DNA from: a virus
Length of the DNA: 45,884 bases
IMG/VR virus record: IMGVR_UViG_3300033153_008048
Span: 1 to 45,884 of that record
Direction: 5' to 3' (one strand)
Shown here: positions 551-37,322 of the stretch, one piece after another
How positions within the stretch are numbered: position 1 is the stretch's first letter
How the letters are laid out: the number at the start of each line of letters is the position of its first letter
Notes under the pieces: model-generated
Told to the model about the DNA's origin: nothing
Database searches by the model: none
What the model saw: the letters and a program-made list of their open reading frames with translations, nothing else
Program-made: the position numbers and the translations under genes

Positions 551-3500
551 TCAGAAGGCCCCTTCGTCCTTCTCGCCCTGCTTGATTACATAGTCTGACC
601 ACCCCGCGACCTTCTTGAATCCTCTGACGAAATCCTCGGCACTCTGCGCGTCCTTCATCTCGGTCATCCCGTCGTAGACATTGATGCCCTGCTTGACCGG
701 GAGCCCCTTGATCAGGCCGGCAAGTTCACCGCCCTGGCGCAGGACATCGAGCCACATCTCCATGCTCAAGTCCTCGATGTCGACCGCCTGGATGAGCTGC
801 TGCCCCTCGCGGAATAGGCTGTCTAGGATCGTGCCCGAGGTCCAGGCTCTGAGGCCGAGCGCGGCGGAGAGCGCCGAGTGCATGAAGCCACCGAGGATGA
901 AGACACCGTTGAACGACCCCAGGAGCCCGGCCCTAATCTGCTCTTTGAGGCGGAACTCGAGGCCGTCTGATGCCCACTGGAAGAGCATCGGCAGGATGAA
1001 GTGGTAGATGATCATCGTCTTGATCCAATCCTGCGCCGTGATCCTGCCGGCGACATAGTCGTCGGTCGCGGAAAGCTCCTTGCGGAAATACTGGGTCGGC
1101 GCGGAGAGGAAGGTCGCCATGAGCCTCTGGATCGAGGACCCTCTCTGGAAGTAGGACTGCTGCGAGAGATCGGCAGACTGCTGCGAGGAGGTGAGCGCCT
1201 TCTCGAACTCGCGGATCGCCTCCTCATGGGTCTTGCCGAGCGTGTTCCGGTGATAGTTGTAGACTGGCCATCCACCGATATAAATCGCGCCACGGTCACC
1301 CCACCGCGTCATGAGCAGCAGGAAGTTCCTAAGGTTAGGATTCAACTGAAAAGCCGTCCACTCCTTCGAGTTCACGGCCTCGCGCAATTCGGGCGTGATG
1401 CTGAGTCCCCGTGAGAGCATCACCTCGGAATTCTCGAGGATACTGAGCTTCTCAAAGGTATCGGTCGCGAGATCACCGAGGCCGACCATGAAGTCCCTGG
1501 TGGGCATGGTATCGGCGAAGGCCGGGAAGGACATGAGCTGCTTGACCGCGATCGCGGGCTTGCCGGCCAGGACCGAGACGGTGTAGTTGTTCTTGATGAT
1601 GTTGAGCGAGGCCCAGTCGTTCGAGCGGTCTATCCCGCCCCGGGTGAAGTCCTCGATATTCCGGTCGATCATCGCGGTGACCTGCTTGCCGAAGTTCGCG
1701 GTGATGGCCTCGCGCACGGCGGCATCGTTAAAGATGCTATTAAACATCCTAATCTTCTTGGCCCACGCCTTGTAATGTTCGATCTGGGCGATGTGCTTCT
1801 GGATGATCTCGATATCGTTCTGCAGACCGAGTTCCCTGAGATTCTTCACGCGCTGCTTGCCGGCGGACGGGGTGATCGATCTCCGGTGCGCGATCTCGCC
1901 GAGCATCTCGTTCTCGAGGGCTTTGCGGTCCAAGACCACCCTGCGGATCGGGCTGTAGTTCTCGACCTGGGGGAGATTCACTCCGTTGATGTCGGAGTAG
2001 ACCGCGTTGAAGCCGGCGTAGTAGTCCCGGTAGAAATCGAGCTGCGCCTGGGCGAAGGCCTTGTCCTGCGGGGTTAGGAAGCCCTCGATCGCGGCCTTGA
2101 TCTCCGGGGTCCACCCCATCGATTTCTCGTGGGTGCCAAAGAGAGTGTCCTGCAGCCCCCGGTCTTGGAATTCCATCCACCGCTTCCTGGCCTCGGCGCG
2201 GGAGATGTTGAGCGTGATCAACTCCCCTTCGGTCTGACCCTCCTTCGGCTGCAGCCTGAAAGTCCCGAGATTCTGCTTCTCGGAGTCCGCCGCCCACCGC
2301 TCGGTGATCTCCCAGTCGCTCATCTCGCCCATGGCATCGGTCCACATCTTGCGGACCTTGAGGAGGTTCAATCGGTTCCCGCGCTTCTCCTCGGTCTCCT
2401 CGAGTTCTACGTCGGCAAGCTTGTTGAGCTGACTCTCGTTGGTCCGCGTGGACTTGTCGTTCCACGAGAGGCGGTTCATGATGTTGTTCCAACCCATCAG
2501 CCAGAGTGTGGCGCGGTTATACCATCCCCAGAGGGTGTCGTCCGCGTTCTCTTCCCCGGTCACCCTGATGCGATCCTTTGGCCGGCTGTCGATGATGCTG
2601 ACCGCGATCTTGCGCTTCTCCTCGAGGTCGGCCTCTTCACGCAAAAGCTTGATCTTGCTCAACTCCTTACCGCCCTGTTTGAGCGCCCGGATCGTGCGGA
2701 GGACATCCACCATCTGCTCGAGCGTCATCTCGTCACTGGCGGAGGTGAGCAGCAGCATCTTATTCTCGAGCGCCCGGACCACGCCTGGAATCTTGGTAGC
2801 GCCGGCATCATTGTCAGCGAGGTTCTTGTCAAGCTTTTCAGCCGCCTCGAGACCACTCAGCTTGGAGGCCTTCCGCATGGCGTTGAGCGTGTCCTGAATC
2901 AGCGGTGTGAAGCGGCCTTTTGGCACGGCCCCTTGGGTCCGAGGCTTGATGGTCTTCAGCTCCTTTCGGACAGCGGAGACGATCCTCCGCCGCGCCGATC
3001 GGTCCTCGAGGGCTTCAATCCTGGCCTCGATCGTGGGCATCGCACCAACGAACTTCTCCTGGCTCGTCATGGCCTTAATCGAATCAAGGAACTTGGCCTT
3101 GTCCGCCGGCTCGAGGCGGGAGCCCTGGATCAGATTTATGAGGTTCCTCTGGGCATTGGCGATCTCGTCCCGGGTCATCTTGGCGGCTTCCCGCGCCCCC
3201 TTGGCCTCTTTGCGGATTCCTTCCTTCAGGGCCTGGAACTGGGTCACCGTGGGCTCAACCGTGGGCTTAACGAACTCACCCACCCTCTTGCGCGTAGCAA
3301 GGGCCTCCTCAAGCTCTGCGATTCTGGCTTCGATACGGGTGATCTCTTCACCAGGGAACCCACCAACCCCAAGCTCTTCTTGACGGGTCCGTATACTGAG
3401 CGCCAGATCGAGTTGCTTATTCAGCTCCCTTTCGACCTCCACGACACTCATCGGGCCAGTCTCCTTAAAGCCGGCCTCCGCAATCTCCTGCTCCGTGGCA

Positions 3501-6500
3501 AGCATCCTAGCGAAGACTCCCCTGACCGCCGGCGACAGCTCGATCCCGAGTTCGCCCGCGTCCTTGATCACATCGAGCAGCCATGCCCTGAAACGCTCGA
3601 AGGTCCTGCGGAGAGATTTGCTCGGGGCTTGCCCCTCGAGGTGGAAGGCGACCCACCCGTCCGCGAACTTCTCCTGCTGCTCGACGGTCATGGTCTCCTG
3701 GTCCGCTTTGATATCGAGCCACTTCGCGAGGACATCCCAGTCCTTCTTGTAGGGCGCGGTGGCCTTGCCGCTGCGGATATAGTTCCAGTAGTTAACGAGG
3801 TACTCGTGCGCGGGCTCGTGCAGGATCGTGGACTCGTCCGCCGTAGGCATGATGCCCATTAGCTTCTTCGACGGGATGAAGAAGCCTCGCGGGGGGAACG
3901 GGTCCTTCTTGGCCGGCGGCGGGGTCTTGGCCTTCGGGTCGAACTCGGGGTCGGGCCGCGCTGCCTGGAAGAGAACCTTCTTTCCGCCGATCGGATCGAA
4001 GAATGTCTGCTCCTCGAGGGGAACGCCGGCGATGTCCTCGGTCGCCTCGTTCTGCGGCCCGAGCAAATCCTTACGTCCTTTCAGCGTTGCCTTGATGCAG
4101 TTCTTGCAAGCGGGGCAGCTCTTGCTCTTGACATCGCAGAGGAAGAATTTGTCGACCTCCTTCTTGAGGAGAGGCTTCTTGAGCTTCCACTGGTTCCCAA
4201 CGCGCTCGTAGGCATCCTCGTCGAGGCGCAGGAGCTTGAACGAAGACTTGCGGATGAAGCGCATCCTGGTCTCGAGGACCGGCAGCTTGAAACGATTCGC
4301 GAACTCGTTGGCCGCGTTCTGCGCGTCCTTTAGATCGGGATCGGTGGTCGCGAAGGATCGGATACGGAGAACGATCATCACCTCCGGGTGCGCGGCCTTG
4401 ATGCGGAGGAGGTTCTCCATCGTCCGCCACATATGGTCCGGGTACATGGGGTCGAGAGAGACCTGGAGGTTCTTCTGCGTCTCCGGGTTGAATCCCTCGA
4501 CGTTCTGCAGCTTGGTCGTGTAGAAGACATCCTTCTCCGCAGTGACCTTGTGCCCCTTCTTGTTCGACCGCTCGAGCAGAGCCTTGACCTGGGTGTGGGT
4601 GTGCGCCCAGTCCCTTGAGGGATCGCCCTTCTCACCGATCCGCAGCGTCTCTCCCTTCTGCAGGATTCCCTTGAGCTGCGCCTTGACGATGTGCTGATGG
4701 CTGATCTGCGCCTGGGCAGCGCCCTTGAGCGCGTAGCACTCGTAGCAGAAGTGATCGCATCCGACGACGGGATCGGCAACGAAGATGCCCTGTCCGCGAT
4801 TGACCGCCTTGGTGAGGTCCGTCGTTTCTTGATCGGCTCCGAGAAGACCCGCAGTTTTCTTATTTTGTTTTGGCGAGATGCTCGGAGCATAATCGAACTC
4901 ACGAAGCGGGCGCTCGATCTGTGCCGCGACCCTGATCTGGTCGAAGACAGAGAGCGCCTTGAAGGCTTCGTTCTGGAGCAGTGCGTCGATGATCTTAGCT
5001 GAGTTTGCCGGCGCGGCAATCTTTGGGAAGCCGTGCGCGGCTAACCAGTCTTGCGCCTCTTTGATCGTAACGATCGTTTGGGCGGGGACTCGATTTTGGT
5101 GGAGGTCCGCAACTTGAGCAGCCGCTTCGACTCCCGCAGGTTTTCTAGGGTCGAGTCGCTCCGTCTTTTGAAGATCAGCGACAGACTCTCCTTCTCTTTC
5201 TGTTGTGCCACGGTCTACACCTCTCTGTAGAAGCGCCCCGGGATCGAGGTTCGCATCGATATCGTTTATTATTCTTCCGGCAAATGTTCCGACCGGATAG
5301 TTCTTTGAAAAAATTGGTATAAGATCATCGCCGCTAACGTCGAGAAATATCTCCCGATCTTCTTCCCGAGATTCTTTAACGAGATCGGCAATAACCCCCT
5401 GCTGCGCCGATGTTGGCCTTCTCGCGATATGGATGGAGGTCTGGTCTCTCGTCACCGAAATTCTAATATTGCCGAAGCTGACAAATTGGGCGAGAGCTGC
5501 CGATGCGGGTGCGTTTTTTTCAAGGGCTTTGAATTGTGGCTCAAGCTCGTCGAAGAGAATCCCGACGGCACGGTGATCCTGACTCCTCTGACCGGGAGTT
5601 CCGCCCTCACGCTTCTCTGAGAAATCGAGCATGGAGCCATCTGGGAGGATGTAGCCGGCCTCTCTAAAATCGTCGGTAGTTCCGAATTCCTTCTTAGCCG
5701 CCTTGATAGATGGATGAGGCTTCGCCGGCTGCTCCAAGGCTTCTGGCTGCAGCAACCCCTCGGCCTCACCGCCTCCAACCACCCGGGCAGTCTCTCCGAA
5801 AGCCTCCTCGATCGAGATGCCGGCCCGCCGCGCCTCGCCCGCGATCGCCCGCGCCCGGGAAAGCGCGGCCTCCTCTATAGCCTCGGAACTGATGCCCTCA
5901 GGTCGTATGGCCTCAAACTGTTCCTTAATGGAACTCAGGACCGTCTGGAAGCCGGGATCAGCCTCGAGCCCGGGAGCCGGGACCGAGGCCAGGAGACCGG
6001 CCTGGACCTCCTCTGGGAGAGTGATCTCGCGGGCATCTAGTGCATCCTTCAGGGCCTGTGCCGGCGCTACCCCTTCGGCCACAGAAGCCTGGAAATCGCT
6101 CAGAATGGCCTCGAGGGGGGTGATATCCAACCCCGCAGCCTCCGCCGCTTCCACAAGTTCCGGGGGAAGCACCTCCTCGCGCAGAGCGGCCTCGGCCTCT
6201 GCGGCGGCTTCCTCAGGGGTGATGGCCGGCGCGGGGGCCTCTTCGGCCTCCTCAGGCTCCGGGGCCTGGGCCTTGTCCGCGATCGCCTGGGCCTCCACGT
6301 TGGTGATCTCCCGCATCTCGGGCTCCACCTTGCCCCTCGCGGCGTTGGCGGTCTGCATCGCATCGATCATCTTGCCCGTGCCGATCTTGGCGAGGCCGGG
6401 GAACATCAGGACCCCTGCGTTGACCAGGAGCTGATCCCCCTTGTGGATGGAAGCCTTTACGCGATCGAACATACTGTCTGGGTCCGCGCCGAAATCCTCG

Positions 6501-7582
6501 ACCCCAGTGATCGCCCGGATCAGGTCACCGAGCTGCTCCTCACCCATCTCCGCCAGAAATCCATCGTAGCCGCCCTTCGTCCAGAGCTGCCGCGCTTCCC
6601 GGCTTGCCCTGGCAGAGATGCCGGTGGTCGGGAGCTTCTTCTTGAGCGCCAGGAAGACCTTCTCGAGACTCGTCTTGACCGCCCTCGGGGTGATGAATTT
6701 CGCGCCTCGAACAAGCTCACCGCCGGCGACCTCGCTGAACATCTCGATCCAGGTGTCGCCCACAGCCTTCATGTAGGAGGTGACCGGCTTCTCCTTGGCC
6801 TCGACGAGCTGCGTCCGACCGTCCTTGGTGACCTCGAGTATCTCGTTGAGTTGCCGATCGGCGAAGTTGCCCGCGACACGATGCTGCAGGATGCCGGTTC
6901 TCACCGCACCGGAGGCGACTCCTGCGGCCACGCGGGTGCCGGCCTTGACAGCGGTCCTGGCTGCGGCCTGTTGGGAGAGCTTCTGAAGGAGCGGCTTGGC
7001 CGTGGCCTTGATGCTGCCCTTGAAAGTGGCTGCTGCGGGACCGGTCGTCACGAACTCAGCGATGAAGGGCGGCAGGAACATCACACCGTCCACGATCCTT
7101 GAAAGGGTGCTGACTCCCCGGATGCGCTCCTCCTCCATGGACTCGAGGGTGTCGAGCAAGAGCTGATCGTCGCCGGCCCGCTCAACGGCACCCCTCACGC
7201 TCTTGAAGATTCCCGCAGCGGCCTCAACGCCGCTGACGCGCTCGATCTCGCCCTCTCCCTCCGGGGTCAAGACGGCGGGGTCCTTCATCCTGCGCTGCGC
7301 GGCACGGAGAGCGCGGAGAGATTCGACCGTCTGCTTGGGGTTCCAGGGGACGGAGTTCCACTTGTCGGCGCGGAGGAACCGCTCTACCGGCCCGATCTCG
7401 CCCTGATTCCGCCACTTCGCGATCTTCTCCGGGGCGATATCGATGATGCCGTCGTCAAAGGGTTCGTTGAAATTGCGGGGGGTGCTGTTATAGTCGACGA
7501 GCCGAATAGTCTTCGGCTCGGCCTCTCCCTCATCGCCACCACGGACCACATCGTTGTAGTCCTTGAGGCGCATGGTCGTCAT
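551..7582 (-). CDS. Giant polyvalent internal virion (ejection) protein, 2343 aa, with radical-SAM/GP88-like and zincin-like domains
   Basis: This sits where T7-like phages have the largest ejection protein. It belongs to the large polyvalent proteins thought to be delivered with phage DNA. Visible segments in order: an Ala/Glu-rich stretch near residues 440-470; a conserved phage domain from about F633 (FGTTDD, then AGYILPDGSMLDFS); a metal-cluster domain with C942, C946 and C949 in CX3CX2C, followed by YALKG as in mycobacteriophage GP88, then strands such as FYTTKLQ, LQVSLDP and IVLRIRS, and a second cysteine set at C1149, C1156, C1159 and C1162; a zincin motif HEPAH at 1255-1259 followed by EKFADGWVAFHLEGQAPS; long helical regions; and a C-terminal domain near 2130-2180 (QQSADLSQQS, YFQRGSS, APTQYFRKE) with hydrophobic helices after it. 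It starts as TGATG with the upstream gene. Enzymatic activity is inferred. Confidence 0.85.
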   Translation of the reverse strand: MTTMRLKDYNDVVRGGDEGEAEPKTIRLVDYNSTPRNFNEPFDDGIIDIAPEKIAKWRNQGEIGPVERFLRADKWNSVPWNPKQTVESLRALRAAQRRMKDPAVLTPEGEGEIERVSGVEAAAGIFKSVRGAVERAGDDQLLLDTLESMEEERIRGVSTLSRIVDGVMFLPPFIAEFVTTGPAAATFKGSIKATAKPLLQKLSQQAAARTAVKAGTRVAAGVASGAVRTGILQHRVAGNFADRQLNEILEVTKDGRTQLVEAKEKPVTSYMKAVGDTWIEMFSEVAGGELVRGAKFITPRAVKTSLEKVFLALKKKLPTTGISARASREARQLWTKGGYDGFLAEMGEEQLGDLIRAITGVEDFGADPDSMFDRVKASIHKGDQLLVNAGVLMFPGLAKIGTGKMIDAMQTANAARGKVEPEMREITNVEAQAIADKAQAPEPEEAEEAPAPAITPEEAAAEAEAALREEVLPPELVEAAEAAGLDITPLEAILSDFQASVAEGVAPAQALKDALDAREITLPEEVQAGLLASVPAPGLEADPGFQTVLSSIKEQFEAIRPEGISSEAIEEAALSRARAIAGEARRAGISIEEAFGETARVVGGGEAEGLLQPEALEQPAKPHPSIKAAKKEFGTTDDFREAGYILPDGSMLDFSEKREGGTPGQRSQDHRAVGILFDELEPQFKALEKNAPASAALAQFVSFGNIRISVTRDQTSIHIARRPTSAQQGVIADLVKESREEDREIFLDVSGDDLIPIFSKNYPVGTFAGRIINDIDANLDPGALLQRGVDRGTTEREGESVADLQKTERLDPRKPAGVEAAAQVADLHQNRVPAQTIVTIKEAQDWLAAHGFPKIAAPANSAKIIDALLQNEAFKALSVFDQIRVAAQIERPLREFDYAPSISPKQNKKTAGLLGADQETTDLTKAVNRGQGIFVADPVVGCDHFCYECYALKGAAQAQISHQHIVKAQLKGILQKGETLRIGEKGDPSRDWAHTHTQVKALLERSNKKGHKVTAEKDVFYTTKLQNVEGFNPETQKNLQVSLDPMYPDHMWRTMENLLRIKAAHPEVMIVLRIRSFATTDPDLKDAQNAANEFANRFKLPVLETRMRFIRKSSFKLLRLDEDAYERVGNQWKLKKPLLKKEVDKFFLCDVKSKSCPACKNCIKATLKGRKDLLGPQNEATEDIAGVPLEEQTFFDPIGGKKVLFQAARPDPEFDPKAKTPPPAKKDPFPPRGFFIPSKKLMGIMPTADESTILHEPAHEYLVNYWNYIRSGKATAPYKKDWDVLAKWLDIKADQETMTVEQQEKFADGWVAFHLEGQAPSKSLRRTFERFRAWLLDVIKDAGELGIELSPAVRGVFARMLATEQEIAEAGFKETGPMSVVEVERELNKQLDLALSIRTRQEELGVGGFPGEEITRIEARIAELEEALATRKRVGEFVKPTVEPTVTQFQALKEGIRKEAKGAREAAKMTRDEIANAQRNLINLIQGSRLEPADKAKFLDSIKAMTSQEKFVGAMPTIEARIEALEDRSARRRIVSAVRKELKTIKPRTQGAVPKGRFTPLIQDTLNAMRKASKLSGLEAAEKLDKNLADNDAGATKIPGVVRALENKMLLLTSASDEMTLEQMVDVLRTIRALKQGGKELSKIKLLREEADLEEKRKIAVSIIDSRPKDRIRVTGEENADDTLWGWYNRATLWLMGWNNIMNRLSWNDKSTRTNESQLNKLADVELEETEEKRGNRLNLLKVRKMWTDAMGEMSDWEITERWAADSEKQNLGTFRLQPKEGQTEGELITLNISRAEARKRWMEFQDRGLQDTLFGTHEKSMGWTPEIKAAIEGFLTPQDKAFAQAQLDFYRDYYAGFNAVYSDINGVNLPQVENYSPIRRVVLDRKALENEMLGEIAHRRSITPSAGKQRVKNLRELGLQNDIEIIQKHIAQIEHYKAWAKKIRMFNSIFNDAAVREAITANFGKQVTAMIDRNIEDFTRGGIDRSNDWASLNIIKNNYTVSVLAGKPAIAVKQLMSFPAFADTMPTRDFMVGLGDLATDTFEKLSILENSEVMLSRGLSITPELREAVNSKEWTAFQLNPNLRNFLLLMTRWGDRGAIYIGGWPVYNYHRNTLGKTHEEAIREFEKALTSSQQSADLSQQSYFQRGSSIQRLMATFLSAPTQYFRKELSATDDYVAGRITAQDWIKTMIIYHFILPMLFQWASDGLEFRLKEQIRAGLLGSFNGVFILGGFMHSALSAALGLRAWTSGTILDSLFREGQQLIQAVDIEDLSMEMWLDVLRQGGELAGLIKGLPVKQGINVYDGMTEMKDAQSAEDFVRGFKKVAGWSDYVIKQGEKDEGAF

Positions 7583-9261
7583 CAGTCGGGGACCTCGATA
7601 ACGATGAACCCTTCGGAATCGATCTTGAGCATCTTCACCGTCTTGCCGTTGGCGGCTTGGGTGTCTCCGTCTCTCACGAACTGGATGCCATCCTTGTTAA
7701 CCTCGGCCACGGCGTTATCGCCGATCTCGAGAGCAGCGGCTTCTGACTCCTTGGAGGTGACCGACTTGTCCATGATCGCGTTGAAGAGGAACGAGAGCGC
7801 GTTGGCAGTCCCGACAGAATCGAGGCCGGCCTTGACCATGCGGCCATGGAAGCCCTTCAGAGTGCCGATCTTCTTGCTGTCAGTCTCGTCGTAGTTCTCC
7901 TGGGTGAACTGGTAGAAGCCCATCTCCTGCGCGGGGGTGAGATAGCCGGCGCTTTCGCTCACAAATTTTCGGAAGGCTGCGACACGGTCGCGATCATTGC
8001 CAGAAGCCTTCTGGACTAGCTTCCCCTTCTTGCGGTCGACCTTGGTCCCAGAGAGTTCGACGAACTGCTCGAATATCTGCCGGTATCGCTCGGACTTCTC
8101 ACGGGGATCGATCGCGGGATCGTTGTTCCTCTTGTTGAGGCGATTCGAGTGCCTCTCGTGGATCGCAGGGGTTATCGTGCCGGCGGCGAGAAGAGAGTCG
8201 AGCTGCTCACGCTTGAGCGATCCGCTCACCTGAGATATATAGAGAGTCCCGTCGACCTTCGCCGTGATTTCGGCCTTCTCCTGCTCCTCCTGACGCTTTA
8301 CCGCAGCCTCTTCGGAGACCTGACCCTTGATGTAGTTCCAGGCCTTCTGGCGCTTCTCCTCTGTCTTGAACTGGGAGTTGACGCTCTTCCGCATCTTCGG
8401 GAGGTCCCATCCGCCGCCCTTGGTCTTGAACTTCGTGCCGGTATTCTGGAACGCATCCCAGAGACCCGCCGAATCCTCGAGGAGCTTCTTGGTGCTGATC
8501 GTCTGACGCAGCTTGGTGACGGTGTCCTTGAGCAGGGAGCCCTCGACGCGATCGAGCATCTTCGTCGCGTTGTCGACATCGAGGTTGATCATATTGTTTA
8601 TGGCCCCGGTGGTGAGTTGGCCGGCGGCTTCCTTCGCATCAAGCTCCTTCTCCTCTGCCGATCTGCCATCGGGAGCGCCAAGCTCCTGAAGTCCGAGAGT
8701 CCTTGTCCTGGCGACATTCTCGACAGCCACGGCCAGTGAGTCTGGAGTCCTGTGCGCGGAGGCATCCTTTATCTGGAGCGCCACATTCGCGGTGTTCACC
8801 CTGGTGAAGTAGGTGTTGATCTCGGCGTTGGTGCGCGTCTCGACATGGCTCCTGAAATTCAAAGACTGGCTTGCGCTCGGGACCTTGAACATCGCCCGCT
8901 GCGCGTTGTTGAGGTCCGCCCCAAGCTCGTTCACCTTCTCGTCGAAGTCACTGAGGAACACCCCCGATTGTTCTGCAGCGTCTTTCCCTCTTACATTGTT
9001 GAAGGCCTCCTTCTGGCTGATCATGTACTCGCCGAGTTCGGTGGACTTCTCGAGGACGGCCAGTTTGTCGGCCTCGTCACGCTGCCTCAGGAGCTGATCC
9101 TGAACCTCCCTGGTGAACCCTCTGGTGGCCTTGGCGAGTCCCTGTGCCGCCGGCCCGCTCGTGAGGCGCTCGGCCTGACGCTCGGCTATTTCAGAACCGC
9201 CCCCCTGGATAGCCGGGAGAGGCTTAAGCGGAATCGGATTGGTCTCTGGAGCGCGTGGCAT
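7582..9261 (-). CDS. Internal virion (ejection) protein, 559 aa
   Basis: It lies between a gp14-like gene and the giant polyvalent protein, the position of T7 gp15-like ejection proteins. The sequence is highly charged, almost entirely helical in character, and has no membrane segment. Helical blocks such as KLAVLEKSTELGEYMISQKE and LRQRDEADK suggest long rods. I recognise no catalytic motif. The start overlaps the upstream stop as TGATG, and its own stop overlaps the next start the same way, so the three ejection genes look translationally coupled. The functional call rests mainly on position and composition. Confidence 0.65.
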   Translation of the reverse strand: MPRAPETNPIPLKPLPAIQGGGSEIAERQAERLTSGPAAQGLAKATRGFTREVQDQLLRQRDEADKLAVLEKSTELGEYMISQKEAFNNVRGKDAAEQSGVFLSDFDEKVNELGADLNNAQRAMFKVPSASQSLNFRSHVETRTNAEINTYFTRVNTANVALQIKDASAHRTPDSLAVAVENVARTRTLGLQELGAPDGRSAEEKELDAKEAAGQLTTGAINNMINLDVDNATKMLDRVEGSLLKDTVTKLRQTISTKKLLEDSAGLWDAFQNTGTKFKTKGGGWDLPKMRKSVNSQFKTEEKRQKAWNYIKGQVSEEAAVKRQEEQEKAEITAKVDGTLYISQVSGSLKREQLDSLLAAGTITPAIHERHSNRLNKRNNDPAIDPREKSERYRQIFEQFVELSGTKVDRKKGKLVQKASGNDRDRVAAFRKFVSESAGYLTPAQEMGFYQFTQENYDETDSKKIGTLKGFHGRMVKAGLDSVGTANALSFLFNAIMDKSVTSKESEAAALEIGDNAVAEVNKDGIQFVRDGDTQAANGKTVKMLKIDSEGFIVIEVPD

Positions 9262-9830
9262 CAGCGTATATCCCTCTCATGAACTCGACCTCTTGGAAGC
9301 GGGCCGCTATCAGTCCCGGTTGATGTGTCCTTTGTCCCAAAGCGTCCTCCGACACCGGACCTCGCCACATCCCTCGCGAAATTGAGACCGCCCGTGGCGA
9401 TGGTCTGCCTGACGGCGAATTCGGTCGCGGCCTTATCGAACTCGGCAGCGCCCTTGAACGAGAGAGCTTGCGCCCTGTATCCGAAGGCCTCCCTCCAGGC
9501 GTTGTTTCTGATCGTGAGTTTGTCGGCCTCGCTCATGGCGCGGGTGTCGACCTGAATCTCGAGCGCCGATCCAGAGTCCACCTCGATGCCTTGGGCTGCG
9601 AAGGCTGCTCTCTGGGAGCCGATGAGGCGAGTCGTCTGCTCATCGAGAACCTCTGCCGCCTTGTCCCCCCGGATCACGGCATCCTCGGCCCGAAGCTCCG
9701 CGATCTGTTGGTTATGCCTGAACCGCTGCTGCCTGAACTCCGAGGCGATCTCCTGCGCGTCCTTCGAGGCGATGACCTGCCCGTAATTGGAAAGTGCGCT
9801 GACCGCTAAAAATCCTCCCGTTTCTCCCAT
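9261..9830 (-). CDS. Internal virion protein, T7 gp14-like, 189 aa
   Basis: The ATG at 9830 has an AGGAGG site five bases upstream. The protein has a small hydrophobic, Gly/Ala-containing N-terminus (FLAVSALSNYGQVIASK), then a long helix (EFRQQRFRHNQQIAELRAED) and the segment IGSQRAAFAAQGIEVDSGSA. These are typical of small internal virion proteins following the tail nozzle gene in podoviruses. In T7 the equivalent protein forms part of the channel through the outer membrane. The C-terminus is Gly/Ser/Thr-rich and probably flexible. Confidence 0.75.
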   Translation of the reverse strand: MGETGGFLAVSALSNYGQVIASKDAQEIASEFRQQRFRHNQQIAELRAEDAVIRGDKAAEVLDEQTTRLIGSQRAAFAAQGIEVDSGSALEIQVDTRAMSEADKLTIRNNAWREAFGYRAQALSFKGAAEFDKAATEFAVRQTIATGGLNFARDVARSGVGGRFGTKDTSTGTDSGPLPRGRVHERDIR

Positions 9831-18545: not shown

Positions 18546-18878
18546 TTACCCTCCGAGGAGAGTCTTGCCGCTCTGTTGGATGCCGCCGATCTCGCCCAGA
18601 CCCTTGGGGCCCGTGAGGATCGTGCTGCGCCGGCCTTTGGCTGCGGCGGAGATAGCTCGTTGTCTGCGCCGGCCCGTGGTCCTCGCCGCTTCGGCTGCGG
18701 TCTCGGATTCCTCCTGATCCCTGCGGGCGGTGGCCTCGGCGAGGAGTTTCGTCTGCGACTCCTCCCGCTTCTTCGACTGCTTGGAGGCTTCTTTCCTCGC
18801 CGCCTTGGATTCGGATACCTGGAAGCCAACCCCGATCGCGGTCAGGATGGTCCCGAGAGCAGCATTGTTCTCGCCCAT
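18546..18878 (-). CDS. Small virion-associated protein of unknown function, 110 aa
   Basis: A short hydrophobic N-terminus (ALGTILTAIGVGFQVS) is followed by a long basic/acidic helix (ARKEASKQSKKREESQTKLL) and a Gly-rich tail. Similar genes sit beside the portal in related podoviruses. It starts as TAATG with the upstream acetyltransferase gene and has AAGGAGG nearby. I cannot assign a function. Confidence 0.65.
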   Translation of the reverse strand: MGENNAALGTILTAIGVGFQVSESKAARKEASKQSKKREESQTKLLAEATARRDQEESETAAEAARTTGRRRQRAISAAAKGRRSTILTGPKGLGEIGGIQQSGKTLLGG

Positions 18879-19342
18879 TATGAAATCCTCCTTGCGTAGC
18901 CCTTGCCGATGAGGGTGTATCCCATCCTCTTGAGCAGCGGGCTGAAGTCGTTGTGGACCGTCACATGGTGGTGGATCACGCGGACTCCATCTTCGGCAAG
19001 CGCCTGATCACACCACTTGAGAAATCGATAGCCATTCGTTCCACGCCGGCCAATGGAAGAGAGGAAGAAGGTGTCCTGGGTCGCCTCGATAGAAGTCTGC
19101 CGATGAAGGTGCGGAATGACCATGAAGGTCGCGTACCCAACCACGCGTCCCTGAAGCGCAGTCTCACGGGCGGTGAAAAGCCGAAGGATGCCGGCTCGTT
19201 CGATTGCAGCGTATTTGTCGAGTGCAGGGTCAAGCTCAATCTCTCTGAAGCTCCCGACCTCGCGCTGATGGTCTTGAGCCAGGGCCAGAAGCTCTGCGGT
19301 GAGCGGCGGTTCGAACAGTTCTCTTGCGAACTCAAGGCCCAT
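18878..19342 (-). CDS. GNAT-like acetyltransferase, 154 aa
   Basis: The length, beta/alpha layout and segments GRVVGYATFMVIPHLHRQTS and FLKWCDQALAEDGVRVIHHH, ending FSPLLKRMGYTLIGKGY, fit the GNAT fold. GNAT-like genes next to terminase and portal are frequent in this phage group; the substrate is unknown. A promoter-like sequence ends eight bases before its ATG, with no room for a ribosome-binding site, so the transcript may be leaderless. It is the first gene of the late head operon. Confidence 0.65.
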   Translation of the reverse strand: MGLEFARELFEPPLTAELLALAQDHQREVGSFREIELDPALDKYAAIERAGILRLFTARETALQGRVVGYATFMVIPHLHRQTSIEATQDTFFLSSIGRRGTNGYRFLKWCDQALAEDGVRVIHHHVTVHNDFSPLLKRMGYTLIGKGYARRIS

Positions 19343-30433: not shown

Positions 30434-31360
30434 ATGATCACAGAAGAGCAGCGAAAAAAAAGGAAGGAGTCGATCGGATCGTCTGACGCGGCGGCGATCC
30501 TGGGGCTCTCGAGATGGAAGACCCCGCTCGAAGTCTGGAGTGAGAAGACCGGGGCGGTCGAGCCCGAGGACATCAGCGACAAGCTGCCGATCATCATCGG
30601 CAATGAGTTGGAGGATGTTGTAGCGAAGCTCTTCACGCTAAAAACTGGCAAGAAGGTCCACCGCGTGAACGAGACCGTCTACGACAAAGAGTTCCCATTC
30701 CTCGCGGTCAACCTCGATCGGCGCGTGGTCGGCGAAGACGCTGTCCTCGAGGCCAAGACTTGTGGGGCATGGGCCGCTAAAGAATGGTCCGGGGAAGAGG
30801 ACATCCCCCAGGAAGTGATCGTCCAGGTTCTCTTCCAACTAATGGTCACCGGGAAGCAGCGCGGATATGCCGCCGTCCTCATCGGTGGGAACCAGGACTT
30901 CAGGTGGAGAGTCGTCGAGCGCGACGAGAAGGTGATCAGGCAGATAAGGGTGAAGTGCGTGGAGTTCTGGCAGAAATATATCGTGCCGAGGGTCATGCCA
31001 CAGGTGGTGACCAAGGACGATGCCCCGGTCCTCTACAGGCTCTTCCCCCACGGTCAGGAGGTCGCCGCCATAGAACTCGGCGAGGAGGTCAACAGACTGG
31101 CGGACAGCATCAAGGGCCTCCAGGCTGACGAGAAGGTCCTGAAGGGTGTGATCGAGAAGGAAAAGAACATGATCAAGGCGATCATGGGAGAGAACGCTGC
31201 CGGGATGAGCGACCGCTTCAAGATCACCTGGAAGAACCAGACCACGCTGCGCCTCGACCAGAAGGAGCTGAAGGATAAGGAGCCCGACATCTACAGCCAG
31301 TACGCAACGCCGTCGCAGAGCCGTGTCCTCAGGATCGCGGCCATCAAACCCAAGAAGTAA
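30434..31360 (+). CDS. YqaJ-type (lambda Exo-like) recombination exonuclease, 308 aa
   Basis: The N-terminus RKESIGSSDAAAILGLSRWK followed by TPLEVWSEKTG is typical of YqaJ nucleases. Catalytic positions are visible: E58 in GNELEDVV, D95 in FLAVNLDRRV, E106 and K108 in VLEAKTCGAW, and Q131/Q135 in VQVLFQLMV. It resects double-stranded ends to give 3' tails. The C-terminal 90 residues are helical. It is followed nine bases later by RecT, its usual partner. Confidence 0.9.
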   Translation: MITEEQRKKRKESIGSSDAAAILGLSRWKTPLEVWSEKTGAVEPEDISDKLPIIIGNELEDVVAKLFTLKTGKKVHRVNETVYDKEFPFLAVNLDRRVVGEDAVLEAKTCGAWAAKEWSGEEDIPQEVIVQVLFQLMVTGKQRGYAAVLIGGNQDFRWRVVERDEKVIRQIRVKCVEFWQKYIVPRVMPQVVTKDDAPVLYRLFPHGQEVAAIELGEEVNRLADSIKGLQADEKVLKGVIEKEKNMIKAIMGENAAGMSDRFKITWKNQTTLRLDQKELKDKEPDIYSQYATPSQSRVLRIAAIKPKK

Positions 31361-31369
31361 GGAGAGAAC

Positions 31370-32464
31370 ATGGAGACCGAGAAGGGAGAAGCACCCGCCG
31401 CAAAATTAGGGAAGGCCCTCGCGACCGAGGAGGTCAAGATAAGGCCCGGGATGAGCCTCCACGCTCTTCTCAAGACGACCACGATCAAGAGCAAGTTCAG
31501 CGATGTCCTCGAGAAGAAGGCCCCGGCCTTCATGTCGAGCGTGGTCTCGGCGGTATCAGCAAACAAGCATCTACAGAACTGTGAGCCGATGTCGATCATC
31601 TCGTCTGCGATGGTCGCCGCGACCCTGGACCTGCCCATCAACCCGCAGCTCGGCATGGCGCACATGGTTCCCTACAAGGGAGTCGCGACATTCCAGATCG
31701 GGTGGAAGGGCATCTACCAACTCGCGATGCGATCGGGTCAGTACCTCACGATCAACATCGCGCAGGTCAACGAGGGTGAACTCGTCAAGCACGACAAGTT
31801 CAAGGGGACCATGGAGTTCGATGCCGAGCAGAAGAGGAGCGACAAGGTGATCGGGACTGTCCTCTACTTCAAGCTCCTCAACGGGTTCGAGAAGTGGTTC
31901 TACATGACCACCGTGCAGCTCGAGGCTCACGCAAAGAGATACTCGCAGAATTACAAAAAGTACGGGACCGGTGTCTGGAAGGACAACTTCCCGGCTATGT
32001 GCGAGAAGACCGTCGCGAAGCTCGGCCTCTCAAAGTTCGGCCCGCTGACCGTCGAGATGCAGATCGCGTTCAAGTCGGATCAGGCCGCGATCCTGCCAGA
32101 CGGTGAACCCGACTACATCGATGGCGCTCTGGCCGAAGAGGAGGAGACTTCCGCGACGGACACGGGCAAGGAAAAGAAGAAGAACGACACCAACAACTCC
32201 CAGTCGCAGGAGATGGCCCTCGCGAAGGAGGACCAGTACCTCGTCAAGGCTGTGATCGCCGGTAAGAGGGGCGACACCAAGGTCTGGATGATCGTGACCA
32301 TGATCGGCGCTCAGTTCGAGACCGATAAGCCTGAGGTCGAGGCGGTCGCGACTGCTGCGATCAAGAGCGGGAACCTCGTGAGGATCGTGGGAGACGACAG
32401 CAAGCAGTCCCAGGTCACCGAGATCGAGCCGCTCGGAAAGCCGAAGAAGACTCGCAAGAAGTAG
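31370..32464 (+). CDS. recT: RecT-type single-strand annealing protein, 364 aa
   Basis: Contains NCEPMSIISSAMVAATLDLP, NPQLGMAHMVPYKGVATFQI and GWKGIYQLAMRSGQYLTINI, the core signature of RecT. It anneals complementary strands made by the upstream exonuclease. The C-terminus after residue 250 is a Lys/Asp/Thr-rich linker followed by an extra domain (KEDQYLVKAVIAGKRGDTKV) not needed for the RecT core. Confidence 0.93.
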   Translation: METEKGEAPAAKLGKALATEEVKIRPGMSLHALLKTTTIKSKFSDVLEKKAPAFMSSVVSAVSANKHLQNCEPMSIISSAMVAATLDLPINPQLGMAHMVPYKGVATFQIGWKGIYQLAMRSGQYLTINIAQVNEGELVKHDKFKGTMEFDAEQKRSDKVIGTVLYFKLLNGFEKWFYMTTVQLEAHAKRYSQNYKKYGTGVWKDNFPAMCEKTVAKLGLSKFGPLTVEMQIAFKSDQAAILPDGEPDYIDGALAEEEETSATDTGKEKKKNDTNNSQSQEMALAKEDQYLVKAVIAGKRGDTKVWMIVTMIGAQFETDKPEVEAVATAAIKSGNLVRIVGDDSKQSQVTEIEPLGKPKKTRKK

Positions 32465-35947: not shown

Positions 35948-36111
35948 AGGACTGCAAATACTTCCGAGTCCTTGAGGTCAGCCCCATGCTTTTCGTTTGG
36001 CTCTGCTCATGCGGGGGGCGCGGGGAAACTCCCATAAAAAAGAAGAATGCGGTGGCTTCAGGCAAGCGCCACATGGGTCAGCAATGCATAGCCGTTAGGA
36101 GGAAGCCATGA
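35944..36111 (+). CDS. Small cysteine-containing protein, 55 aa
   Basis: Starts MKDCKYFRVLEVSPMLFVWL, with CSCGG and later CIAVRRKP. It overlaps both neighbours as ATGA, which supports it as a gene. Function unknown. Confidence 0.6.
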   Translation: MKDCKYFRVLEVSPMLFVWLCSCGGRGETPIKKKNAVASGKRHMGQQCIAVRRKP

Positions 36112-37322
36112 ACGATAAAGAAAAACTAGATAGGATGCACGGTGATTTGATGGCGGGGCTCAGTCAGTTTGTCGCAACACCGGAGGAAGGGTACGTCGAA
36201 GCCCCCTACCTTGTGAGGAGAGACATTGAGAAAATCGGGAAGGAACTTGCCGATTTTAAGTCTTGGGGGATAATCGAAGTAGCAATAAGAAATCCCAACG
36301 TGGCTGAATACATGAAACACTGGGAAGGCAGAACCGAGAAAGCCGAAACCGCCCTCAAGACCTCCGAGGAGGCCAGGGAGAAAGCGGAGGGGGAACACGC
36401 CGAGGACCTGAAAGCGATGGAGGCAAGCCGAGACAATTATCGATCCGACCGGAACCAAGCTGTCGAGGAAACAAAGCAGTCCGAGGCGAGGCTCACCGAG
36501 GAGATTGAGAAGCTAAAGAAACATCTTTGTCCACAATGCGGGGGGCAGGGATGGTATACCGGTTCTGAGCATGATCCAAGTTGCGACGGCACCTGTGCCA
36601 ACTGCCCAGTTCCAGTCCAGGTCCAATGCGACTGTTCCTCGGTCCAGGTTATTCTGAGGGAGAAGGCCGAGCAAGCCCTGGCCGAGACCAAAAAGGAATT
36701 GCGGCACACCCGGAACACCGTATGCGCTCAGTCGAGCGAGGCAACACTACTCAGGCAAACCCTATCGAATACCGAGCAAGCCTTATCCATGGAGGAGAGG
36801 GAACTCGCCGGGAATAGACAGGCGTTGAGAGACGAGCAGGATCGTCACTCCAAATCTCAGGAAGCCCTAGCCGAGAAGGAGAAGCAAGAAGAGAATCTAA
36901 TGGACGGCCTGTGCCGTCTGGCTGGAATCAAACCGGATGGGGATTTCTCTTGTCGTGAAAATATTGCCCGTTCTATCAAAACAATCAGGTCGCACGATGC
37001 TGTGTGGGCTCGTTTCAAAAACGCATCTGTTGAGGACTTGCCATTCGTCATTGTCGGTCTTGAGGAAGCCCTCAAGACCTCCGAGGAGGCCAGGGAGAAA
37101 GCGGAGGTGAAGGGAAGGAAGCAGATTTTCCGATGGCTACAAACACTACCGAAGCCTAACGGAAACGATTGGGAATGGTTTAAGGGTGAGCTTGAAAATA
37201 AGATTGCCCAGGATCAGGTGGCGGTTGGGAAGCCCAAAGAGGATGAACCGATATGTTCCTGCATCCACGGCGCTGTTTTCCCCGACTGTGATGTGCATGG
37301 TGACAGGCCATCCCGGTCCTGA
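36108..37322 (+). CDS. Coiled-coil protein with DnaJ-like zinc centre, 404 aa
   Basis: Long coiled coils (residues of about 70-140 and 180-265) flank a cysteine-rich centre with CPQCGGQGWYTG, CDGTCANC and CDC, like the zinc centre of DnaJ. The segment ALKTSEEAREKAE occurs twice, encoded by an identical 40-base stretch. A C-terminal CSCIHGAVFPDCDVHG could bind another metal. Overlaps the upstream gene as ATGA. Function unknown. Confidence 0.65.
   Translation: MNDKEKLDRMHGDLMAGLSQFVATPEEGYVEAPYLVRRDIEKIGKELADFKSWGIIEVAIRNPNVAEYMKHWEGRTEKAETALKTSEEAREKAEGEHAEDLKAMEASRDNYRSDRNQAVEETKQSEARLTEEIEKLKKHLCPQCGGQGWYTGSEHDPSCDGTCANCPVPVQVQCDCSSVQVILREKAEQALAETKKELRHTRNTVCAQSSEATLLRQTLSNTEQALSMEERELAGNRQALRDEQDRHSKSQEALAEKEKQEENLMDGLCRLAGIKPDGDFSCRENIARSIKTIRSHDAVWARFKNASVEDLPFVIVGLEEALKTSEEAREKAEVKGRKQIFRWLQTLPKPNGNDWEWFKGELENKIAQDQVAVGKPKEDEPICSCIHGAVFPDCDVHGDRPSRS
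36351..36390 (+). repeat. 40-base exact direct repeat, copy 1
   Basis: Identical to 37068-37107, in the same gene and frame; encodes ALKTSEEAREKAE. Exact identity at the DNA level points to recent duplication or ongoing gene conversion. Confidence 0.92.
37068..37107 (+). repeat. 40-base exact direct repeat, copy 2
   Basis: Identical to 36351-36390. Recombination between the copies would delete 717 bases, including the zinc centre, without changing frame. Confidence 0.92.

Follow-up and report, generated by a model that had tools for sequence, protein, structure and literature searches.

The giant gene of this phage locus raises the question of whether a predicted virion ejection protein carries a radical-SAM enzyme. 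Several kinds of enzymes are known to be injected from virions, among them polymerases, ADP-ribosyltransferases, nucleases and methylase-helicases. Searches of the open-access literature yielded no account of an ejected virion protein with a radical-SAM domain, and if the reading given here is true, such an enzyme would introduce a chemistry new to virion-injected enzymes. Since it would have to acquire or retain its cofactor in adverse circumstances, when the cluster is assembled becomes a testable question. The window, by which we mean the whole stretch of DNA analysed, is the IMG/VR virus record IMGVR_UViG_3300033153_008048, with a length of 45,884 bases. From the computed fold, conservation and gene context, we consider it probable that a functional radical-SAM domain resides here in a virion-ejected protein.

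The protein in question has 2343 residues and is read from one minus-strand reading frame that is open from end to end (551..7582). It belongs to PHROG 9880, and tblastn and BLASTP relate it locally to Bbp10 of Bordetella phage BPP-1 and to other giant phage proteins, mostly via an HExxH domain (residues 1232-1370, minus strand 3473..3889, with HEPAH at residues 1255-1259). No other part of the giant family is as well conserved, and judging from its motif this domain would be a zincin-type metallopeptidase. It did not match the Pfam MPTase profile, although HExxH is conserved among the giants, and the conservation of its alignment was too low to serve in the collection scan. Elsewhere, residues 629-736 (5375..5698, minus strand) share 41% identity with the giant protein of Rhodobacteraceae phage LS06-2018-MD07, and a C-terminal core (residues about 1824-2160, minus strand 1103..2113) is weakly similar to the giants of BPP-1 and Caulobacter phage; exact peptide patterns from the C-terminal 644 residues retrieved zero viral relatives. 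Adjoining the giant gene on the same strand are genes for a 559-aa cassette protein (7582..9261), the N-terminal half of which is related to BPP-1 Bbp11 (E 7e-6), and for an internal virion protein of PHROG 418 (9261..9830) related to Bbp12 (E 2.5e-15). Neither of the two contains cysteine. Past them come tail, capsid, protease and portal genes. The order of the cassette, Bbp12-Bbp11-Bbp10-type, is syntenic with phage BPP-1. Synteny and homology support the original prediction of an ejection protein, and the giant is probably injected into the host along with the DNA. Such injection of polyvalent proteins together with DNA is a proposal in the literature (PMC5512222).

As a giant multidomain protein encoded amid virion genes, the product is of the polyvalent type (Iyer et al., 2017, PMC5512222), a group that includes Bbp10-type proteins of BPP-1. 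It shares with this group the HExxH domain and, in its vicinity, enzymatic domains that can be swapped. Radical SAM, GP88, iron-sulfur and cysteine are all absent from the paper's main text. The giants of relatives bear the polyvalent domains LPD22, PBECR and ART-type. In the BPP-1 giant, a PBECR1 nuclease match at 643-729 precedes HExxH at 797, and in the window giant the radical-SAM domain ends near 1165, ahead of HExxH at 1255. Therefore, the segment directly ahead of the HExxH domain looks like a payload slot. The pairing of radical-SAM and HExxH domains in one chain looks secondary, because the HExxH domain has homologues in giant phage proteins that lack a radical-SAM domain; only one giant protein with a radical-SAM domain was found, on a single contig. 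An assembly chimera was considered and ruled out, since the frame is uninterrupted and giant phage proteins match the segments that flank the domain on both sides. As a separate observation, window 4799-5698 (residues 629-928) has a GC content at third codon positions of 0.55 versus 0.75-0.86 elsewhere in the giant gene; the start of this stretch matches the giant of Rhodobacteraceae phage LS06-2018-MD07, and the whole of it seems to have been acquired recently.

The radical-SAM domain covers residues about 929-1165 (4088..4798, minus strand), close to the span 4050-4790 proposed at first. It is delimited by an HMM match, an AlphaFold2 model of residues 905-1178 and a structural match. The giant protein has seven cysteines in all (C942, C946, C949, C1149, C1156, C1159 and C1162), and every one of them lies inside this domain; seven positions drawn at random would all fall within such a short stretch with P about 5e-6. 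The first three form CX3CX2C (4736..4759, minus strand), are the predicted ligands of a [4Fe-4S] cluster and are followed by YALKG, exactly as numbered in the original prediction. The other four are spaced C1149-x6-C1156-x2-C1159-x2-C1162 (4097..4138, minus strand). Between the two sets, RIGEKGDPSRDWAHT (residues 981-995, minus strand 4598..4642) contains GxxGDP, which ends strand 2 and stands in place of the radical-SAM GGE(P) motif. Among nine giants of relatives (L010-L018, 1694-3270 aa, some of which end at the locus or record end), eight have no cysteine, that of BPP-1 has one, and none has CX3CX2C. Because the giant family otherwise avoids cysteine, the cysteines of the domain look like an acquired, functional feature.

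The relatives of the domain are difficult to reach. The domain alone found no significant match in Pfam, PHROGs, NCBIfam or PDB sequences, and BLAST-type searches were likewise without a significant hit in phages, viral contigs, genomes and plasmids; the one plasmid hit, a weak one (E 0.5), was to a YgiQ radical-SAM protein. Relatives were recovered by DNA patterns for CX3CX2CYA, then GDPxxDWAH. Three close homologues with 34-37% identity keep all seven cysteines: two from uncultivated phages (L172, 269 aa, 35% identity over 241 residues, E 3.5e-34; L171, 266 aa) and one of 311-315 aa (L170) from a bacterial MAG labelled uncultured Silvanigrella. These stand-alone proteins retain both cysteine clusters as well as GDPxxDWxHT, TKLQ and QVSxDP. 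Close homologues occur in one of the 58 genomes of the phylum of that MAG, namely the MAG itself, and none was seen among plasmids or sequenced phages. A sister clade consists of at least 80 phage proteins (L174-L253) from uncultivated phage loci, with 20-27% identity to the domain and without a profile in the libraries used. One of its members, queried against 50,697 sequenced phages, gave no match. The sister clade retains the first three cysteines and a C-terminal trio. It differs from the domain in its first motif (about C-x10-C-x3-C), in having three C-terminal cysteines instead of four, and in its partner domains. An HMM built from the three close homologues, with the window sequence excluded, matches residues 929-1164 at E 4.5e-44 (Z set to 100,000), and one built from the sister clade alone, again with the window sequence excluded, finds the domain at E 2.4e-5. 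The weak family matches of the homologues are to radical-SAM models and are located at CX3CX2C. On the 119-kb phage contig that encodes L171, there is also a second radical-SAM-type protein, CNVGCKGCYALKG (L002 1101-2120).

The alignment of 40 rows has invariant D, G, C, C, C, Y, R, G, G, P, W, T, S and R as well as two invariant cysteines in its C-terminal part, and the sister clade has all of these in common with the domain. They include C942, C946, C949, C1156 and C1162, together with R981, G983, G986, P988 and W992; D987 is nearly invariant and C1159 is kept in at least 90%. The second set, also noticed in the original prediction, is preserved with all four cysteines in the three close homologues and as a trio in the sister clade. 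The auxiliary iron-sulphur site suggested for it is one possibility, and zinc is another; the model has a pLDDT below 55 at this place.

The fold was predicted by AlphaFold2 from the 40-sequence alignment (residues 905-1178). The model has a pLDDT of 79.8 and a pTM of 0.79, and its strands and helices alternate in the (beta/alpha)6 order of the radical-SAM partial barrel, as expected from the TIM-barrel pattern read earlier in the sequence. CX3CX2C comes right behind the first strand (model residues 35-37), and its spacing is equal across the close clade. Model residues 251-257 and 264-274, near the last cysteines, are of low confidence (pLDDT <55). A single-sequence AlphaFold run reached a pLDDT of only 42.5 and was not usable. 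Foldseek retrieved nothing from the PDB at E 0.001 or better; the radical-SAM reading of the fold comes from the matches of the second-look aligner VIA. Its best match is pyruvate formate-lyase activating enzyme (3c8f; Z 12.5, rmsd 3.4, 191 residues). The best 50 matches (Z 9.0-12.5) are presumably all radical-SAM enzymes, those after the top including NifB, viperin, QueE, spore photoproduct lyase, lipoyl synthase, MoaA and others. In the viral library BFVD, a radical-SAM protein from a Campylobacter phage ranks first (probability 1.00). A radical-SAM fold, as originally predicted, is thus supported by sequence, profile-profile and predicted-structure comparison.

The next question is to which radical-SAM family the domain is related. 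Profile-profile comparison of the four close members with the DUF5131-type phage set gave 97.9%, whereas the domain against GP88 gave 9-22% (8.7% for the four close members) and an unrelated negative control 0.1%; the E-values are those of single comparisons, and the DUF5131-type alignment mainly covers the first half of the barrel. The close clade against the separately aligned sister clade gave 98.7%, and GP88 against the DUF5131-type set gave 95.5%. With DUF5131-type proteins (PF07505/PF04055; NCBIfam rSAM_mob_pairA), the domain shares the CX3CX2CYA-x-K start, the order of the next strands and helices, a D-containing motif after strand 2 and TK after strand 3 (hhalign 98%, residues 934-1024). 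The DUF5131-type proteins seen are stand-alone, and the two that were checked (L067 and L115) match PF07505 and PF04055, whereas the domain lies inside a giant protein, is aligned in its first half only, and has no single-sequence Pfam match: it gave none to PF04055 and none to PF07505 at E 10, so the kinship appears by profile-profile comparison only. The original prediction had likened the domain to GP88 (PF17338) of mycobacteriophages. The motif order is indeed equal (C..C..CYA, R-I-x3-GD, TK, C..C..C), including the C-terminal CxxCxxC found in several GP88 members. However, PF17338 is unmatched up to E 10, the cysteine spacing is C-x5-6-C-x3-CYA in GP88 versus C-x3-C-x2-CYA in the domain, GP88 has GDF where the domain has GDP, and the profile-profile values fall far short of the 98% for the DUF5131-type set, so that membership in GP88 is very improbable. 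Judged from these comparisons, the domain is not a GP88 member; the two are cousins through DUF5131-type phage radical-SAM proteins, because both align strongly with the DUF5131-type set and weakly with each other. Of the GP88 likeness, motif order and distant kinship therefore stand, and family membership does not.

Other readings dispense with radical chemistry altogether. Two clusters of closely spaced cysteines could belong to a plain zinc-binding domain that resembles the radical-SAM motif by chance, but the partial-barrel model, the radical-SAM structural matches and the homologues with both clusters leave hardly any room for this, and the plain zinc-finger fold named beforehand as the contrary outcome did not appear. 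The domain may instead have retained the radical-SAM fold in a degenerate or structural role without catalysis, for example as a redox or metal sensor. Activity is known for no member, the overall identity is low, and a structural zinc might account for the second cysteine set. Nevertheless, across 40 proteins the three cluster cysteines, together with GxxGDP and further barrel residues, vary little or not at all, as one would expect of a working active site, and a non-catalytic role seems improbable.

A working enzyme could act on either side of infection. As we picture it, the radical-SAM domain would be the payload of a polyvalent Bbp10-type ejection protein; packaging, delivery, cluster, catalysis, release and substrate are what we infer around the computed features. 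C942, C946 and C949 would hold a [4Fe-4S] cluster, GxxGDP behind strand 2 would bind SAM, and cleavage of SAM would yield the 5'-deoxyadenosyl radical, with an auxiliary cluster or zinc possibly bound by the second cysteine set. The giant would be packaged alongside the other ejection proteins and enter the new host with the DNA, where the adjoining HExxH domain might release the radical-SAM domain, which would then be active with host SAM and host reductant. In its folded state, an iron-sulphur domain would probably fail to pass the tail intact; therefore, either the cluster would have to be reassembled after entry into the new host, or the enzyme is active where the phage is produced. In the latter case, its target would be phage DNA or, while particles assemble, a virion protein, and the giant would carry it along as part of the same chain. 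The need for unfolding at tail exit speaks for this, as do the ease of cluster loading at the site of protein synthesis and the ties of sister proteins to DNA-modifying enzymes. On the other hand, the other enzymatic domains of the giants have been proposed to work in the course of injection or afterwards (PMC5512222), and action in the producing cell appears the less likely course, though one to be reckoned with.

For the substrate of the proposed injected enzyme, the neighbourhoods of the homologues give some hints. In 73 of 80 sister loci, the protein is linked to a GNAT-DNA-methyltransferase, being fused to it in 39 and adjoining it in 34. The GNAT part is presumably such from its sequence appearance, without a profile match; the methyltransferase region was identified for one protein (L168) through PHROG 498 together with a PF01555 match below the threshold. 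The sister clade with its partner is a candidate for a new DNA-modification system. Because this association is nearly constant, a nucleic acid (DNA or RNA base) is our tentative best guess for the substrate. It is only a guess since the two close phage homologues (L171 and L172) adjoin MoxR-like ATPase and CobT-type VWA genes, not a GNAT-methyltransferase, and the window encodes no methyltransferase resembling the partner of the sister clade. Genes for the MoxR-like ATPase, the CobT-type VWA protein and the radical-SAM homologue itself are consecutive on two large phage contigs (L171 1659-5729; L172 1626-5732). A more speculative and rather unlikely extension is that an injected radical-SAM nucleic-acid-modifying enzyme alters incoming DNA or host nucleic acid in the first minutes of infection, for instance for restriction evasion, and represents an undescribed phage family whose other members serve in GNAT-methyltransferase modification modules.

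A few further genes were observed around these loci. L171 is accompanied by a reverse transcriptase at 7747-8568. In the window, a 404-aa open reading frame without a Pfam match (36108-37322, plus strand) has 13 cysteines (3.2%), and an acetyltransferase-like protein of PHROG 1249 (18878-19342, minus strand) is encoded between the terminase and portal genes. A YqaJ-type recombinase and RecT adjoin each other (30434-32464, plus strand) and form a phage recombination module.
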